DNA of 64,000 nt from Opitutus sp. GAS368 (GCA_945903545.1 CAMDOO010000003.1:1-64000); one strand, 5' to 3'; counted from the first letter of the stretch, positions 27,083 through 35,513 are shown. The notes: a model not told the origin generated them from the sequence alone. Numbers and translations: made by a program.

Positions 27083-29266
27083 ATGCAATCGACATCCTCA
27101 TTCCTCCGTCGACCCGTGGGGGTCCTGGCCGGGGCCACCCTCATGCTCGCGGGCGGATTGTCGTCGTCCGCCAACGCGGCCGAGGACAGCGACCCGTTCC
27201 CGTCCTTCTAGAGCTACATCAAGATCGCCGGCCAGACCCCTTGGGTCACCGGCAACCAGGCCGCCTACCAGAACCGCACCCGCAGCAGCGGTGACGGCTC
27301 GGCTGGCATCGAGGACCTGCATATCTACAAGGACGTCTCGCGCACGTCCTTCTACGAGATCGACGGTCACGCCCTGACCGGGGCCAATGATTACCTCGCG
27401 CAGTTCAAGTTAGAGAAGACCGAGGTGGGCTCGGTCGAGGCGGGCTACAAGCGCTTACGCACGTTCTACGACGGCGCCGGCGGCTTCTTCCCCCTGAACA
27501 ACGCGTGGCTGCCCCTGGCCAACCAGGACCTCCACACCGACCGCGCCACCTACTGGATCGAGGCCAAGGTCAATCTGCCCGACCGCCCCGTCTACACCGT
27601 GCGCTACGAGAACCTGCTGCGCAACGGTACCAAGGACTCGCTCCACTGGGGTGACAGCGACTTCACCGGCCTGCCCAACAACCGGCCGCCCATCTCGCAG
27701 GTCCGCAAGATCGTCCCGAGCTGGCGGCAGCTGGGCGAGCGCCATCAGGTCCTCGAGGCCTCGATCGCCCACAAGATCGGCAAGACCTCCTACCTCCTGA
27801 AGGCCGAGGGTGAGAAGACGCACAACCTCGACACCCGCAACGTCACCCGCTTCCCGGGCGAGGTCCGGCCTTTCCCGACTCCGGCCAGCACGCTGCTCGT
27901 CCCGGCGGAGAACATGAACAACCAGGTCATCCTGGCCCAGACCGACGGCATGGACACTACCTCGGCCAAGGTGATCGGCTCCACCGCGACGACGTTCAAC
28001 CCGAAGTTCAAGCTGCGCACGGCCCTGAGCTACGAGCTGGAGAACACGGACTTCACCGGCGACCGCCCGCTCATCACCAGCACCCCGACCGCCGCCGGCG
28101 TCGTGCTCGTGACAACCAACAACTACCAGAACCTGACGGGCGGCTCCCGGATCAAGATCCTCGCGGGCAACGTGGTGCTCGACACCCAGCCCTCGGCCAA
28201 CCTCGGGGTGCGGCTCTCGCTGCGCGGCGAGGACAAATACACCAATGGCACCGGCACCTTCGACGTGCTGTCCGCCAGCGGGACTCCGGCCGTGACCCTG
28301 GCGACCACGCCGCGGCGCGAGTTCGCCCGCGTCAAGGAGCACTCCCTGACACCGGACCTCGACATCCGCTACACGGGGATCCCGAACCTGGCGCTCTACG
28401 CCTCGGGCAACTGGCGGAACCTGAACGGCGACGAGCGCAATACCAGCGCCTTCAACCCGCTCACCGCCACCCAGGGCACCGTCGCCAACAACACCATCGG
28501 GGAGATCCACGCGAACTACAACGTGGGCGCCAGCTGGCATCGCTCCGACCTGCTGACGCTGCGCGGTGACCTCTCCTACAAGGATCACGAGTACTCCTCG
28601 ATCGCCTACGGCCCGAAGCTGGGTGAGCGCTATGTCCGCAATTCGCAGACCAGCACCCTCAAGCTCACCGCGACCACGCGCCCCTCGGACCAGTGGTCAT
28701 TCACCACGCGCTACATCTACCAGCACGGCGCGATGCAGGTGGAGGGATACCTGCCCGACCGGCCGGCCTACGACTCGATGGCGCTGCGGAACCACACGAT
28801 TGACGAGACCATCGATTGGAACCCGACGAAGCAGTTCTACGCCCAGCTCAATGCCAACGTGGTCTACGGGTACATCAGCACGGTCTACCCGCGGGCGGGC
28901 ATCACCGCTCCGACGACCCCGACCAACGTGGCCTTCAACACCAACGACGTCCTGCAGAACTCCAACAACAACTACGTCAATGGCAGCGTCCTGGCGGGCA
29001 TGGTCCTGACCAAGAAGGACGACGTGCAGATCCAGTACACCTACTATCACGCCGCCAATGCCAACCCCCAGGTCGCCTACCTCTCGATGCCCTATGGCGT
29101 GGCGGCCTTGGATTATGCCGTCACCGTCGGCCTGAAGCACAAGGTGTCCGACAACCTCGTCCTCAACGCGAAGGCGGGCTACACCCTGAGCCGCAACGAC
29201 ACCACCGGCGGGCGCACCAGCTACCACGCCCCCATGGCCTACGTGTCGCTCACCTACGGGCTCTGA
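27083..29266 (+). pseudogene. MtrB/PioB-like outer-membrane barrel, interrupted by in-frame TAG
   Basis: The 728-codon frame starts at ATG 27083 with a signal peptide (LAGATLMLAGGLSSSANA). It meets TAG at 27209-27211 (FPSF-stop-SYIKIAGQ) and then continues in the same frame without further stops to TGA 29266. The body is beta-barrel-like with alternating strands, ends in YVSLTYGL, and fits the decaheme-associated MtrB/PioB family that sheathes a multiheme cytochrome. A single C-to-T change (CAG to TAG) would explain the stop. Two TTA codons, rare in this genome, lie at about 27409 and 27455. It may be a recent nonsense mutation, a base-call error, or read through. Confidence 0.75.
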
Positions 29267-29601: not shown

Positions 29602-30264
29602 TCACGGATGATAATACTGCTTCCGGGCCTTGACCTGGACGATTTCAAAACCCGGGAGCACGACCGCGGTCAGGCAGCCGCCGAGCACGCAGGCGGTGTC
29701 GATGCCCATCGTCCATTTGGTGCGCACCACCTCGGGCCGGGGCGTGTGGCCGTAGATCACGAAGGGCGGGCCGCGCCACAGGTCGGCCCAGGGCTTGGCG
29801 CGCGGCGCCTCCGACCGCTTGCGGGCCTCTCCGAGGGAGTCGACCACCTGGATCCGGGTGACAATCCGCGCGGGCTGTGAGCGCCACGGGACATCGGGCA
29901 GGAATCCGCCGTGGACGAGCACGATCCCGTGCTGCCGGTCCTCGTAGGTGAGGCGCATCCTGGCCAGGTAGTCCCAGGAGGGGCGGTCCAGCGCGTCGAG
30001 CGTGGCGTGGTCGTACGGCTTGAGGTGGGTGGGGTCGTCGGTCTTCCGGTAATTGAGGAGCCGCAGCTCGTGGTTGCCCAGCAGCGCTGCGGTCGCGTGC
30101 TTCCGCGCGAGCTGGATGACCCGGTGGCTGTCCGGCCCGCGATTCACCAGGTCCCCGAGGAGCACCACCCGGTCGGCCCTTTCCGGCGCGAGGGTCTCGA
30201 GGAGGATCTCGAACTCCTCGTGGCAGCCGTGGATGTCGCCGATGACGATGAGGCGTCCGCTCAT
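29602..30264 (-). CDS. PPP-family serine/threonine-type protein phosphatase
   Basis: 220-residue metallophosphatase. All PPP motifs present: GDIHGCHEE (residues 8-16), LGDLVNRGPDS, LGNHELRLL, VHGGFLPD and YGHTPRPE. Similar to the bacterial PrpA/PrpE/ApaH group; it could act on phosphoproteins or nucleotides. It faces away from the glycolipid operon across the gap 30265-30602. Confidence 0.85.
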   Translation of the reverse strand: MSGRLIVIGDIHGCHEEFEILLETLAPERADRVVLLGDLVNRGPDSHRVIQLARKHATAALLGNHELRLLNYRKTDDPTHLKPYDHATLDALDRPSWDYLARMRLTYEDRQHGIVLVHGGFLPDVPWRSQPARIVTRIQVVDSLGEARKRSEAPRAKPWADLWRGPPFVIYGHTPRPEVVRTKWTMGIDTACVLGGCLTAVVLPGFEIVQVKARKQYYHP

Positions 30265-30602
30265 GTTCGGTCGGATCGCGGGCCCCGGCCGAGCGCGGCC
30301 GTTTGTGGCGTGAGTGGCAGGGCGCGCCCGGCCCGGGCGCGGATGAGGGGAACGGATGACATCGCGATGCCGGACACTGGTACGGGCGTGATTCCGTCAC
30401 TTCCAGAGGAAATCCGGGACGACACCGAAACTTCACAATGCCCGGCCCGGCTTCCTTTTAACGCATTAAGTGAAAAGTGCGTAACGCGCCCGGTAGGGCT
30501 TCGCCCAGCATTTCACGTATTACGTGAAAGGGAGGCACGACCCAATGCTCCACGCGTTGTTGCGCGCTTGTCACGTCTCCGCCGCGCAATCGCCACGCGG
30601 GG
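30265..30602. other. intergenic region with a 19-base palindrome upstream of the glycolipid operon
   Basis: No gene is recognised in 338 bases. TTTCACGTA-T-TACGTGAAA (30511-30529) is a perfect 9-base inverted repeat, about 75 bases before the glycosyltransferase ATG. CATTAAGTGAAAAGTGCG stands just upstream. It may be an operator for the operon or a repeat of the same style as 48730-48746. A Pho box was looked for and not found; only one TTGTCACG half-site-like word exists at 30568. Confidence 0.5.
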
Positions 30603-31838
30603 ATGCCAGGCTGGGTCTGCGGGCCGACCGTCGGCCGGCACCACGATTTGCACCTCGCCCTCGTCACCGAAACCTACGCACCCGAAATCAACGGGGTCGC
30701 CCTGACCCTGGGGCGGATCGTCGACGGCGCGGCGGCCCGCGGGCACCGCGTGACGATCATCCGGCCGCGGCAGCGGCACGAGTCCCCGCGCTCCTCGGTC
30801 ACCCGCCGGCTTTCCTGCCTGCATGTCCGCCTGCCCGGGATCCCGTTGCCGGGATACCCGCAGCTCCGGATCGGCCTGCCGGCCGGCGGCCGTCTCGACC
30901 GCCTGTGGCGCCGCGACCGGCCCGACCTCGTGCATGTTGCCACCGAGGGACCGCTCGGCTCCTCGGCGATCGCCGCCGCCCGCCGCGCCGGTCTCCCGGT
31001 CACCTCGAGCTTCCACACCAACTTTGACCAGTACACGCGCGACTACCGCATCGGCTGGCTCGGGCCGCTCGTGGGCGCCTGGCTGCGCCGGGTCCACAAC
31101 CGGACGATGCGCACCTATGTGCCGACCGGAGACCTGTGCGCGCGGCTCGAGGCGTCCGGCTACCGCAACCTCCGCATCCTCTCGCGCGGCGTGGACACCG
31201 CGCTGTTCAACCCCGCGCGGCGCGATGAGGCCCTGCGCGCCGCCTGGGGCGCCGGCCCGCGCGACCCCGTTGTGATCCACGTCGGCCGGATGGCGGCCGA
31301 GAAGAACTACCCGCTCGTCTTCCGCGCCTTCGCCGCGATTCGCGAGGTTCATCCCCGGGCAAGGCTCGTCCTCGTCGGCGACGGACCGCTGCTCACGTCC
31401 CTCCAGCAGCAGCAGCCCGACGCGATTTTCACCGGCTTCTACACTGGTCCCAACCTCGCGCGGTACTACGCCTCGGGCGACATCTACCTGCACGCCAGCA
31501 CCACCGAGACATTCGGCAATGTTGTCCTCGAGGCCATGGCCAGTGGTCTCGCGCTCGGCGCCTTCCACTATGCCGCGGCGCGGGAGTTCGTCCGCCCCGG
31601 CCGCAGCGGCCTCACCTGCCCGCTGGGCGACGAGGCGGCGTTCCTCGCGCAGGCCCGGCGCCTGGCCGACGACGACGCACTGCGGCGCGAGCTCGGCGCC
31701 ACGGCCCGCGCGGAGGCGCTCCCCTGGTCGTGGGATGCCGTGATCGACGGTTTCCTGCACGACCTCGGGGGCGCGGTCGCGGAGCACCGCCCGGCCGGTT
31801 CCGGTCCAGCCATTCATCCCGTCCCCTCCGCCCCATGA
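30603..31838 (+). CDS. GT4-family glycosyltransferase, MgtA-like (lipid mannosyl/glucosyltransferase)
   Basis: 411-residue GT-B enzyme. Start HLALVTETYAPEINGVALTL and the pair TSSFHTNFDQYTR and HVGRMAAEKNYPLVFRAF match GT4 enzymes that glycosylate diacylglycerol or other lipids. The C-terminal nucleotide-sugar motif STTETFGNVVLEAMASGLA is clear. It probably works at the cytosolic face of the inner membrane. ATG 30603 adds a 15-residue lead; a TTG at 30648 is possible. Its TGA overlaps the ATG of the next gene (ATGA). Context suggests glycolipid synthesis. Confidence 0.85.
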   Translation: MPGWVCGPTVGRHHDLHLALVTETYAPEINGVALTLGRIVDGAAARGHRVTIIRPRQRHESPRSSVTRRLSCLHVRLPGIPLPGYPQLRIGLPAGGRLDRLWRRDRPDLVHVATEGPLGSSAIAAARRAGLPVTSSFHTNFDQYTRDYRIGWLGPLVGAWLRRVHNRTMRTYVPTGDLCARLEASGYRNLRILSRGVDTALFNPARRDEALRAAWGAGPRDPVVIHVGRMAAEKNYPLVFRAFAAIREVHPRARLVLVGDGPLLTSLQQQQPDAIFTGFYTGPNLARYYASGDIYLHASTTETFGNVVLEAMASGLALGAFHYAAAREFVRPGRSGLTCPLGDEAAFLAQARRLADDDALRRELGATARAEALPWSWDAVIDGFLHDLGGAVAEHRPAGSGPAIHPVPSAP

Positions 31839-32677
31839 GCAAACCCATCCTCCATGTCCGCTCGGTGATCCTCTCCGATGTCCACCTCGGCACCCCGCAC
31901 TCCAAGGCGGAGGAAGCCGCGTTCTTCCTCAAGCACGTCCGGTGCGAGCGCCTGATCCTAAACGGTGACATCATCGACGGCTGGCGTCTCCGCCGCGACG
32001 GCCGCTGGACCGCCGCCCACACCCGCTTCGTCCGGCGGGTGCTCACCATGGTCCAGAAGCGCGAGACGGAGGTGATCTACCTGCGCGGCAACCACGACGA
32101 TTTTGTCGGGCGCCTGATCCCGCTTGAGCTAGGGCTGATCCGGATGGAGGAGGACATGATCCTCGAGACCCCGGCCGGCCGCTACCTCGTGCTGCACGGC
32201 GATGTCTTCGACGGGGTGATCAAGAACATGGTCTTCCTCGCCCACCTCGGCGACATTGGGTACGCGCTGCTCCTCCGCCTCAACCGCGTGTACAACGCGT
32301 GGCGGCGTTTCCGCGGCAAGGATTACTTCTCGCTGAGCAAGGCGATCAAGGCGCGGGTGAAGCAGGCCACGAGCTTCATCGGCAAGTTCGAGGAGCAGGT
32401 GGCGGCGCTGGCCCGCAGCCGCGGCTGCGTGGGCGTGATCTGCGGCCACATCCACACCCCGGCCAACAAGTGGATCGGCGGTGTGCACTACCTCAACTCC
32501 GGCGACTGGGTGGAAACGCTGTCCGCCATCGTCGAGCACCACGACGGCCGCTTCGAGCTGATCCATTTCGCGGATTTTGTCCGCCGTTTCCCGGAGCCGC
32601 CCCCGGCTGAGGCCGAGGACGGGGAACCACCGGACCACGTCGTGCCCGCCGCCGCCTTCCACGGGTTCGCAACATGA
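31835..32677 (+). CDS. PlcP-like metallophosphoesterase (LpxH superfamily)
   Basis: 280-residue calcineurin-like phosphoesterase. Metal motifs: LSDVHLGTP (residues 13-21), LNGDIIDGWRLR, RGNHDDFV, LHGDVFDGVIKN and CGHIHTPANK. The middle (LGDIGYALLLRLNRVYNAWR, TSFIGKFEEQVAALARSRG) and the end (LNSGDWVETLSAIVEHHDG) match PlcP, the phospholipase C used to strip phosphate head groups under phosphate limitation, rather than short LpxH. It is sandwiched with 4-base overlaps between two glycosyltransferase genes, fitting phospholipid-to-glycolipid conversion. Annotation pipelines would likely name it UDP-2,3-diacylglucosamine diphosphatase. Confidence 0.82.
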   Translation: MSKPILHVRSVILSDVHLGTPHSKAEEAAFFLKHVRCERLILNGDIIDGWRLRRDGRWTAAHTRFVRRVLTMVQKRETEVIYLRGNHDDFVGRLIPLELGLIRMEEDMILETPAGRYLVLHGDVFDGVIKNMVFLAHLGDIGYALLLRLNRVYNAWRRFRGKDYFSLSKAIKARVKQATSFIGKFEEQVAALARSRGCVGVICGHIHTPANKWIGGVHYLNSGDWVETLSAIVEHHDGRFELIHFADFVRRFPEPPPAEAEDGEPPDHVVPAAAFHGFAT

Positions 32678-33840
32678 ATCGCGTCCGCCGCACGGTCCTC
32701 ATTCTCACCGCGGGTTATGGCGAGGGCCACAACAGCGCGGCCCGCGCGCTGCAGGCGGCCTTTCACGAGCACCCGGGGATTGATGCCAAGCTGGTCGACA
32801 TCTTCGCCGACTTCGCCCCGGTGGCGAACGACTGGTCGCGGAAAGCCTACCTCCAGACGATCAATCGCGCGCCCGGCGTGTGGGGTGCCTGCTACCGGTG
32901 GCTGGACCGCTCGCGCTCCGTGCCGGGTCTCCTGCGGCTGCTCTCCGGCCATGCCCGGCTGCTCGAGCGGCGTCTGGCGCAGGAGCGGCCCGTGGCACTC
33001 TGCTGCACCTATCCCGTTTATCCCTGGCTGCTGCGGCAGCTCCGGAATCCGCCGCCGGTGTTCACCGTCGTCACGGATGCGCTGACCATCAATTCCCTCT
33101 GGTTCCGCGCCGCGTCCCGCCGCTGGTATGTCACGGACGAGGGCTCCGCCAAGGTGCTGGCCGGCGGGGGAATTTCTCCGGCCGACGTCGAGGTCTCCGG
33201 GTTTCCGGTCGGGCTCGCCTTTGCGGACCGGCCCGCGGCGTGGCAGCCCGCCGCCGAAGCCGGGGCAGAGAAGCGCGTGCTCTTCATGGTGAACTCCGGG
33301 CGCGCCGCGGCGGCGCCCGCCGTGCGGGCCATCCTCGAGCGGACGGAATGCGCGCTGACCGTGACCGCGGGCCGCGACCGGAAGCTCCAGCGTCAATTGG
33401 AGGAGATGGCGCCTTCCTTTCCCGGACGGCTGCAAGTCCTCGGCTGGACTGATCGCATGCCTGAGCTGCTCATGACCCACCACCTCGTGATCAGCAAGGC
33501 GGGCGGCGCGACGACGCAAGAGGCGATCAACGCGCTCTGTCCGATGATCGTGAGCCAGGTCGTGCCCGGGCAGGAGGAGGGCAACTGGGAACTGTTGCGA
33601 CGGAACGCGGCCGGAGTACGCGCCGATTCCACGGAGGAGATGTGCGCGATGATCCGGCGGGCCTTCGTGGCGGAAGGCACGCTCTGGCACTCATGGCGGC
33701 GGCAGCTGGCCGGCATCGCCCGGCCGCAGGCGGCCCGCACCATCGCGCACTCGGTGCTCGAGCGGGCCGAAGCCCCGATTGCGGTGGCCGCCGCAACCTC
33801 GAATTCACGCTTCGGTAACCTCAAGGTCGCGGGATTGTAA
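32674..33840 (+). CDS. MGDG synthase/UgtP-like diacylglycerol glycosyltransferase (GT28)
   Basis: 388-residue GT28-type enzyme. The N-terminal LILTAGYGEGHNSAARALQAAF is the signature of MGDG-synthase and processive diacylglycerol glucosyltransferases. The C-terminal half has VLGWTDRMPELLMTHHLVIS, KAGGATTQEAINALCPMIV and GQEEGNWELL, the UDP-sugar site. It likely adds galactose or glucose to diacylglycerol. It starts inside the stop of the PlcP-like gene. Together the three genes could produce diacylglycerol and glycosylate it. Confidence 0.85.
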   Translation: MNRVRRTVLILTAGYGEGHNSAARALQAAFHEHPGIDAKLVDIFADFAPVANDWSRKAYLQTINRAPGVWGACYRWLDRSRSVPGLLRLLSGHARLLERRLAQERPVALCCTYPVYPWLLRQLRNPPPVFTVVTDALTINSLWFRAASRRWYVTDEGSAKVLAGGGISPADVEVSGFPVGLAFADRPAAWQPAAEAGAEKRVLFMVNSGRAAAAPAVRAILERTECALTVTAGRDRKLQRQLEEMAPSFPGRLQVLGWTDRMPELLMTHHLVISKAGGATTQEAINALCPMIVSQVVPGQEEGNWELLRRNAAGVRADSTEEMCAMIRRAFVAEGTLWHSWRRQLAGIARPQAARTIAHSVLERAEAPIAVAAATSNSRFGNLKVAGL

Positions 33841-33863: not shown

Positions 33864-34382
33864 ATGAAGACCAGTGCCCAAGCCGTCGCCACCGTGCCCG
33901 GGCCGCTTGGGCTGGGCCCGGTCGGGACGGCCCAGGATTTCCTGGTGACCCCCGTGCGCCAGGTGGGTGAGGACTGCGGTTTGCTGGCCTGCATCGAGTC
34001 GATCGCCCGCGACCGCAACATCCGGGTGGACCAGGCGTCGCTCAGTTGGCGCTATCCCCATTACCGGCGGAAACCCGCCTCCGACCGCGGCCGGGTGGGC
34101 GTCCGCGCCGCGCTCGAGATCATGGCCGACCTCGGTCTCTCCTCCAACTCGGAGACCGTCCATGGCCGCGCCCTCGCGATGCTCGCCGCGAAGATCCCGA
34201 ACGGGGTGCTGCTCGTCGTGGAGGACGATTTTGGCGGCACCCGCTGGTGGCGGATCGCCGAGATCACGCCGGGGTTCGTGCGCGTGATGCAGCCCGAGGC
34301 GGCCGATCCCGCCCGGCTCGCCGAGCTGACCTGGGACGAGGTCGAGGCGCTGCGCGGGTGCGGGCTGGCCTTCGATCTTTGA
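33864..34382 (+). CDS. papain-like (C39-type) cysteine-peptidase-fold protein, possibly inactive
   Basis: 172-residue protein. VRQVGEDCGLLACIESIARD (residues 32-51) looks like the Gln-x-Gly-x-x-Cys oxyanion/nucleophile segment of C39/papain-like peptidases. The later GVLLVVEDDFGGTRWWRIAE and VRVMQPEA resemble the second half, but the expected catalytic His is replaced by Trp/Arg (GTRWWRI). It may be a pseudo-peptidase or use another His. 23 bases after the glycosyltransferase, likely co-transcribed. Function unknown. Confidence 0.45.
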   Translation: MKTSAQAVATVPGPLGLGPVGTAQDFLVTPVRQVGEDCGLLACIESIARDRNIRVDQASLSWRYPHYRRKPASDRGRVGVRAALEIMADLGLSSNSETVHGRALAMLAAKIPNGVLLVVEDDFGGTRWWRIAEITPGFVRVMQPEAADPARLAELTWDEVEALRGCGLAFDL

Positions 34383-34525: not shown

Positions 34526-35398
34526 TCAGTGCGTCATCTGGTAAAGCAGGATGTTGATCGCGAGGGGGTAGGCGATTTTCTCAGAGTAGCGCTCGAAGTA
34601 GTCGTGATCCTCGCCTTCCCGCTCCCAGCCGTCGCTGTCGTCGGAGTTGTGGAGGCTCATCGCCATGATCCGGCCCTTGGCGTCGAAGAGGACGCGGTGC
34701 TCGATGCGGGTGCCGGGAATCTTCATGCCGATGCGGATGTTGGCCACCTGGGCTTTCTCGGTGATGTTGAACACGGCCCGGTAGAGCGGGTGCTCGATCG
34801 GCAGTTCGACAAAATGAGACCCGGGGAGGATCTGGTCGAAGATCCGGTTCACGTTGTTGGCATCCGCATCACCCCAGGAATCGGTCATGAGCATGAAGCC
34901 ACCGTTCAGCAGATAGGCCCGAAGCGCGGCGAGCTCGTCGGCGGTCAACGCGAGCGAGCCCGGGGCCGAGGCGAACAGGAAGGGATAATCCGCGAGCTCG
35001 GGATCGGTGGCCCGCACGATCCGGCCATTGGGGTCCACCTTCATCGCCGTCATCTGCTGGAGGCGGTAGGAGAGGTTGAGGTCGGCGTCAGGCAGGTCGG
35101 TGGTCCAGCCGCCCCGCCCGCGGCCGCCGGCCCGAATCCCGCCCGGGGTGTCGTAACGCAACCGCGCGAAGGTGAAAACGTCCCGCTCAAACCCGACCGG
35201 GTTGGCCCATTCGGGCGTGCCCACGCTGCGAGAACCAATCTCACGCGAGGTCCGGGTGTAGGGATCGACGTAGATCTGGCCGCCCCCAAAGATGCGGAAC
35301 TGGGCGAACAGCGTGGATGCGACTCCCAGCGCCGCGAGGAGGAGGAGCCGCCTTGTGGTTTTGGGCAGGCGTTCCGGAGTCTCGGATAGGGCGGGCAT
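34526..35398 (-). CDS. DUF4159-domain exported protein
   Basis: 290-residue protein. After an N-terminal hydrophobic segment (RRLLLLAALGVASTLFAQF), the DUF4159 fold shows as VFTFARLRYDTPGG, YPFLFASAPGSLALTADELA, LRAYLLNGGFMLMTDSWGD, and the end FERYSEKIAYPLAINILLYQ. DUF4159 proteins resemble a glutamine-amidotransferase-like fold and often occur with MoxR/BatA-type clusters, which are not seen here. ATG 35398 is chosen before the hydrophobic segment. Function unknown. Confidence 0.8.
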   Translation of the reverse strand: MPALSETPERLPKTTRRLLLLAALGVASTLFAQFRIFGGGQIYVDPYTRTSREIGSRSVGTPEWANPVGFERDVFTFARLRYDTPGGIRAGGRGRGGWTTDLPDADLNLSYRLQQMTAMKVDPNGRIVRATDPELADYPFLFASAPGSLALTADELAALRAYLLNGGFMLMTDSWGDADANNVNRIFDQILPGSHFVELPIEHPLYRAVFNITEKAQVANIRIGMKIPGTRIEHRVLFDAKGRIMAMSLHNSDDSDGWEREGEDHDYFERYSEKIAYPLAINILLYQMTH

Positions 35399-35513
35399 GT
35401 TCCTGTGACGGCTCCGGAGCCGAAAATATGCCACCTGACGCCGAAATGTAACACCGACACCGTTGCGCCGCTCTTCCCGGGGGATGAACGTCGGTCCAGA
35501 AAAAGCCCGACCC

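Follow-up and report, generated by a model that had tools for sequence, protein, structure and literature searches.

When phosphate is scarce, does Opitutus sp. GAS368 replace its phospholipids with glycolipids, and if so, with which enzymes? The question is raised by three overlapping genes at 30603-33840 on the plus strand of the window (by which we mean the whole 64,000-nucleotide stretch of DNA that was analysed). A sequence-only reading had described them as a lipid-remodelling operon with a glycosyltransferase of family GT4, a phosphoesterase similar to the phospholipase C PlcP, and a glycosyltransferase of family GT28. All three open reading frames are present with the positions, strand, and 4-base overlaps that it gave (Table 1). 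Both junctions are ATGA (GT4/PLC at 31835-31838 and PLC/GT28 at 32674-32677, where PLC is the PlcP-type phosphoesterase), and all three products score above the Pfam cut-offs: 97 and 96 bits for the GT4 domains, 39.6 bits for Metallophos, and 49 bits for MGDG_synth (cut-off 25). We think it quite likely that this is a phosphate-starvation lipid-remodelling operon.

Table 1. Features of the putative lipid-remodelling operon in the window
Feature	Position	Strand	Basis or remark
Candidate Pho-box-like tandem repeat, TTGTTGC-GCGC-TTGTCAC, 11-bp period	30557..30574	+	Upstream of GT4
GT4, retaining glycosyltransferase, Agt-like, 411 aa; alternative start TTG at 30649	30603..31838	+	Pfam GT4 domains
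PLC, PlcP-type metallophosphoesterase, putative phospholipase C, 280 aa	31835..32677	+	Identity, tree, GNHD motif
GT28, glycosyltransferase of MGDG-synthase/UgtP type, 388 aa	32674..33840	+	PF06925

Two adjacent genes were considered as members of the operon and excluded as non-lipid enzymes by Pfam: a divergent phosphatase gene (ApaH/PNKP-like, 29602-30264) and the gene for a 172-aa protein at 33864. The 172-aa protein (33864-34382) is itself without a Pfam match and is conserved in a congener; it has a faint look of a C39-type peptidase, but this is just an impression. Further out, 27425-29266 encodes a 613-aa protein that reads as an outer-membrane beta-barrel and whose only Pfam match is sub-threshold, and 34526-35425, shortly downstream of the operon and on the minus strand, encodes a DUF4159 protein (134 bits). 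Upstream of the operon, at 30457-30529, the 19-bp palindrome TTTCACGTATTACGTGAAA occurs twice, 54 bp apart, with one copy imperfect. A pair with the same spacing lies near this locus in a congener (L030), and there is a single near-copy on contig C122 of the genome. Perhaps the pair is a small repeat element.

The phosphoesterase

The best curated names for the middle protein are UDP-2,3-diacylglucosamine diphosphatase, and the only solved relatives that we found are LpxH, with which it shares the calcineurin-like metallophosphoesterase fold and the metal ligands. But its scores for the curated names are 37.6 and 28 bits, against cut-offs of 134 and 190; the lower score is for the LpxH model. 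It is 23% identical to LpxH of E. coli versus 49% to PlcP of P. aeruginosa, and it has the motif GNHD where LpxH of E. coli and the solved LpxH have GNRD. In a maximum-likelihood tree of phosphoesterases (67 rows), the three LpxH sequences are split from the PLC/PlcP side by a long branch with 100/100 support. Finally, LpxI was identified in the window's genome (137 bits) and in 36 of the 38 genomes searched, and a profile search found no LpxH above the cut-off among the genomes searched. Because the genome encodes LpxI, lipid A should be independent of PLC. The tree, the motif, the low identity, the sub-cut-off score, and the separate LpxI all speak against LpxH, so judging from its sequence, the middle protein is PlcP-type. 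This is what the sequence-only reading had preferred; it had also named a phylogeny against PlcP and LpxH as one way to check, and what we find is that PLC falls apart from LpxH, with LpxI to serve lipid A. For this branch of proteins, the database name is misleading.

We take the P. aeruginosa comparison protein to be PlcP (PA3219), going by gene order rather than by accession. In the P. aeruginosa record, its gene lies directly before the gene in the agt1 position, with an overlapping glycosyltransferase and then a nucleotide cyclase, as in the plcP-agt1 pattern of PA3219-PA3218. The characterised PlcPs of Sinorhizobium and Phaeobacter share 46-47% identity with PA3219 (PMC8528852), so at 49%, the window's protein is within the range of identity among characterised PlcPs. 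The metal-binding residues (D15, H17, D45, N86, H121, H205, and H207) are invariant. In the tree, the window's protein lies among the Verrucomicrobiota, next to the Bacteroidota and then the Planctomycetota, with the proteobacterial PlcPs outside; its nearest relatives form a separate Verrucomicrobiota/Bacteroidota branch. In the literature that we examined, we found no PlcP knock-out or enzyme assay from this branch.

Besides the ApaH-like neighbour, the only further metallophosphoesterase that we found in the genome is a 345-aa protein at C3:66553, whose start resembles that of an exported protein. In another genome, a copy of PLC (L017; G023:C65:5213-6019) has a TAA stop within the matched stretch.

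The glycosyltransferases and gene order in relatives

The GT4 protein is 33% identical to the agt1-position protein of P. aeruginosa. Of the two donor motifs of Agt, GRVAxEKN and TDTFG, the first appears as GRMAAEKN (fitting GRxAxEKN), and TETFG stands in the place of the second; the protein scores far below the equivalog cut-offs of the curated models. Its start could be off by about 15 codons: similarity to other genera begins around residue 16, but in the congener G001 it extends back to residue 2. A GT4 from Hydrogenophaga is 47% identical, and there the gene order is GT4, a UDP-glucose-dehydrogenase-like gene, and PLC. By analogy, this hints that one of the sugars might be glucuronic acid. 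The same type of GT4 is found near PLC in loci from Burkholderiales (L160:473-3973, with the dehydrogenase-like gene in between, and also L148 and L155).

The GT28 protein shares the MGDG_synth domain with UgtP/YpfP and with plant MGD1, as well as the residues GH, TD, KAGG-T--E, and PGQE-GN, which are invariant among its relatives. Against solved enzymes, the UgtP type matches at 8e-21 and MGD1 at 2e-19. Unlike UgtP/YpfP, it scores just 154.6 bits on the diglucosyl-diacylglycerol synthase model (PRK13609), whose equivalog cut-off is 500. At 45% identity or above, GT28 was found in 13 of the 25 genomes from the window's own family that were searched.

A relative of PLC was found in 26 of the 38 close relatives and, phylum-wide, in 97 of 289 genomes. 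We tabulated 67 loci, mostly from Verrucomicrobiota (L097-L099 are from Bacteroidota, and L090 duplicates L046); the lineage is verrucomicrobial, as had been guessed from the sequence. Because GT4, PLC, and GT28 are neighbours on the same strand in 24 of the 67 loci, the set is no chance cluster. They appear in three orders, always with GT4 first (24 of 24): GT4-GT28-DAGK-PLC (13 loci), GT4-PLC-GT28 (7 loci, including the window), and GT4-GT28-PLC (4 loci, including G005, which we take to be Opitutus terrae). The remaining arrangements include PLC alone (15 of 67), GT4-PLC (13), and GT4-PLC as a single open reading frame (10). DAGK denotes a lipid kinase whose domains are DAGK_cat and YegS_C, and besides the 13 four-gene loci, it is in the operon in 4 further verrucomicrobial loci. 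In the window's genome it is encoded away from the operon, at C67:733. More broadly within the Opitutaceae, the kinase lies between GT28 and PLC in L036, L039, L042, and L084-L091, and outside the operon in the window's genus. For loci without an adjacent GT4, we found a GT4 elsewhere in 11 of the 13 genomes that were checked. Outside of the window's family, GT4 and PLC without GT28 or the kinase is the usual pattern. By gene order, GT4 and PLC are the verrucomicrobial core pair, and GT28, often with DAGK, is an addition in the window's family.

Do GT4 and GT28 act in series? If GT4 added the first sugar and GT28 the second, the operon would make one two-sugar lipid, which would be compatible with lipid remodelling. 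That GT28 accompanies GT4 and PLC in 24 loci, with GT4 always first, would fit. On the other hand, PLC adjoins GT28 in G132, whose genome has no such GT4, and a contig from Planctomycetota has PLC-GT28 without a neighbouring GT4. Also, MGD1 and UgtP use diacylglycerol directly. A strict series is conceivable, but we doubt it; because of the two PLC-GT28 pairings, the comparison of sequences favours a GT28 that acts directly on diacylglycerol.

The 10 loci of the Akkermansia group that we read directly each encode GT4 and PLC domains in one uninterrupted reading frame of about 650-690 codons. In family f19, 21 of the 22 genomes with a match have it in an open frame of 643-762 amino acids, and 5 of these were read directly. 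Examples include L093, L096, and L165:4591-6651, which is from G143, presumably Akkermansia muciniphila.

In Parabacteroides (L071:3977-5898), the gene that comes after PLC and overlaps it encodes a glycosyltransferase of a different Pfam type (PF13528), which may mean that Bacteroidota have a version of their own.

Evidence for phosphate control

The repeat upstream of GT4 is a candidate site, similar to the Pho boxes known from other bacteria. With a Pho-box model that was trained without the window's genus, it has the top score of the 127,964 positions in the window (both strands), and when 300-bp stretches were taken from the window at random, none of 200 scored as high. It also falls in the range of positions that is common to the sites in relatives (-62 to -125). 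It is imperfect, as one unit is TTGTTGC and the third unit is degenerate, and the classical E. coli Pho-box matrix missed it. A YYGTMAC-like tandem repeat with an 11-bp period is present on the coding strand upstream of GT4 in 13 of 37 operons; when real sequence was drawn from these loci at random 1000 times, the average count was 1.2 and the highest was 5. A caveat is that the pattern was picked after inspecting the relatives. In many relatives, a Pho-box-like site is absent or weak in the upstream region of the operon. Of the two best sites in L082, one is upstream of GT4; the other, at 1839 and on the opposite strand, lies to the side from which the pstS fragment at the end of the locus would be read. 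In the window's genome, similar sites are found shortly after pstS and 84 bp ahead of the best PhoB-like gene. PstS was identified in this genome with NCBIfam; the PhoB-type proteins are below the NCBIfam cut-off for PhoB.

Of the 67 loci, 11 have genes for Pst or PhoU close to the operon (within the stretch that was read, and weakly in L081). For example, L053 has the order porin-like, PstS, GT4, PLC, PhoB-like, PhoR-like, PstC, PstA, PstB, PhoU, and L039 has the order GT4-GT28-DAGK-PLC, porin-like, PstS, PstC, PstA, PstB, PhoU, PhoB-like. Of these, PstS (in both loci) and PstB and PhoU (in L053) score above the NCBIfam cut-offs, while the PhoB- and PhoR-like proteins are below them; for PstC and PstA of both loci, the names come from reading and similarity. 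Directly after PLC, L100 and L101 have a phoU-like gene. If we assume sizes for the genomes and the clusters, a rough binomial P value for 8 of 46 loci with pst or pho neighbours is about 2e-10. Taken as comparative evidence, the site in the window and the neighbours in relatives support phosphate control of the operon, and with it the link to phosphate that the sequence-only reading had proposed.

Proposed function and relation to known pathways

We infer the substrates, the sugars, and the regulation in the cell as follows. At low phosphate, a PhoB-type regulator would bind the repeat and turn on the operon. The PlcP-type enzyme, as expected from its family, would take the phospho-head group off of membrane phospholipids to give diacylglycerol, and GT4 and GT28 would each glycosylate diacylglycerol from a nucleotide sugar. 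GT4 enzymes retain the sugar linkage and GT28 enzymes invert it, so two linkages are expected. Like Agt, GT4 would add glucose or glucuronic acid in alpha linkage, and GT28, like UgtP, would add a sugar in beta linkage and possibly further ones. Phosphate would be spared, and the membrane would retain both charged and neutral lipids. In the many relatives that have it, the DAGK_cat kinase could turn diacylglycerol back to phosphatidic acid when phosphate returns.

Another idea is that the product is a glycolipid that is always present, or one that anchors a cell-surface polymer, in which case PLC and the kinase would be for the turnover of diacylglycerol instead of for saving phosphate. Gram-positive bacteria, with UgtP and recycling by a kinase, are the model for this. 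The UgtP-like GT28 and the kinase in the operons of relatives would make sense, but the Pho-box-like repeats and the pst and pho neighbours would not, and neither would the prevalence of GT4 with PLC, and no GT28 or kinase, outside of the family. We consider this explanation unlikely. Alternatively, the acceptor might be ceramide or another non-glycerol lipid; lipid kinases of the DAGK fold can use other lipids. There is a precedent for two phosphate-controlled glycosyltransferases in the two-step glycosphingolipid pathway (Sgt1/Sgt2) of phosphate-starved Caulobacter (PMC6445935). However, the GT28 is of the MGDG-synthase/UgtP type, which uses diacylglycerol, and PlcP would supply diacylglycerol, so a non-glycerol acceptor seems quite improbable. 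We give hardly any credence to the idea that PLC is an LpxH-type lipid A enzyme and that the glycosyltransferases make lipopolysaccharide: the curated names and the solved relatives are in its favour, and the scores far under the cut-offs, LpxI, the tree, the GNHD motif, the Pho-box-like site, and the pst and phoU neighbours are all against it.

Lipid remodelling by PlcP, the explanation that we prefer, is already well established, and the verrucomicrobial operon is a real variant of it. PlcP-Agt systems are known from Sinorhizobium/Agrobacterium, Phaeobacter, Pelagibacter HTCC7211, and P. aeruginosa (PA3219-PA3218/PA0842). As in those systems, PlcP is beside a GT4 lipid glycosyltransferase and under Pho-box control (here, as predicted from the sequence), and P. 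aeruginosa also employs two glycosyltransferases (PMC8528852). Unlike in those systems, the verrucomicrobial PlcP is in its own branch next to the Bacteroidota, the GT4 is only about one-third identical to Agt, a GT28 is present in addition, as is a lipid kinase in many relatives, the gene order is different, and the Akkermansia group has the fusion. In type Ia methanotrophs, plcP similarly adjoins a processive-type diacylglycerol glycosyltransferase, but this UgtP-like enzyme reportedly takes the place of agt (PMC9239053), whereas here there is a GT4 as well, and the lineage is different.

The sequence-only reading had stated that one glycosyltransferase is usual in known plcP loci, which is only partly right, as some of these loci (types 3 and 5) have several (PMC4796936). 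It had also stated that the operon would extend this kind of remodelling to a probably verrucomicrobial lineage. The lineage does have a PlcP-type operon, but this is not new: PlcP was already noted in the single-cell genome of a verrucomicrobium (PMC4796936). Our search of mostly open-access literature found no report of a GT4-PlcP fusion, of the GT4-GT28-DAGK-PLC set, or of any plcP operon that includes a lipid kinase, so we view these as a variant of established PlcP lipid remodelling.

On balance, we lean towards the view that Verrucomicrobiota have their own PlcP lipid-remodelling module, in which the GT4-PLC protein of the Akkermansia group (presumably including A. muciniphila) is bifunctional and the two glycosyltransferases and the kinase of Opitutaceae are a reversible switch. 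If this is true, then the fused GT4-PLC would be a single protein that converts phospholipid to glycolipid. In the three-gene operon, the two glycosyltransferase folds predict one alpha-linked and one beta-linked glycolipid. The Verrucomicrobiota include cultured species such as Opitutus terrae and Akkermansia muciniphila. Phosphate-sparing lipid replacement, which has been studied mostly in Proteobacteria, would extend to a phylum that is common in soil, lakes, and the gut.
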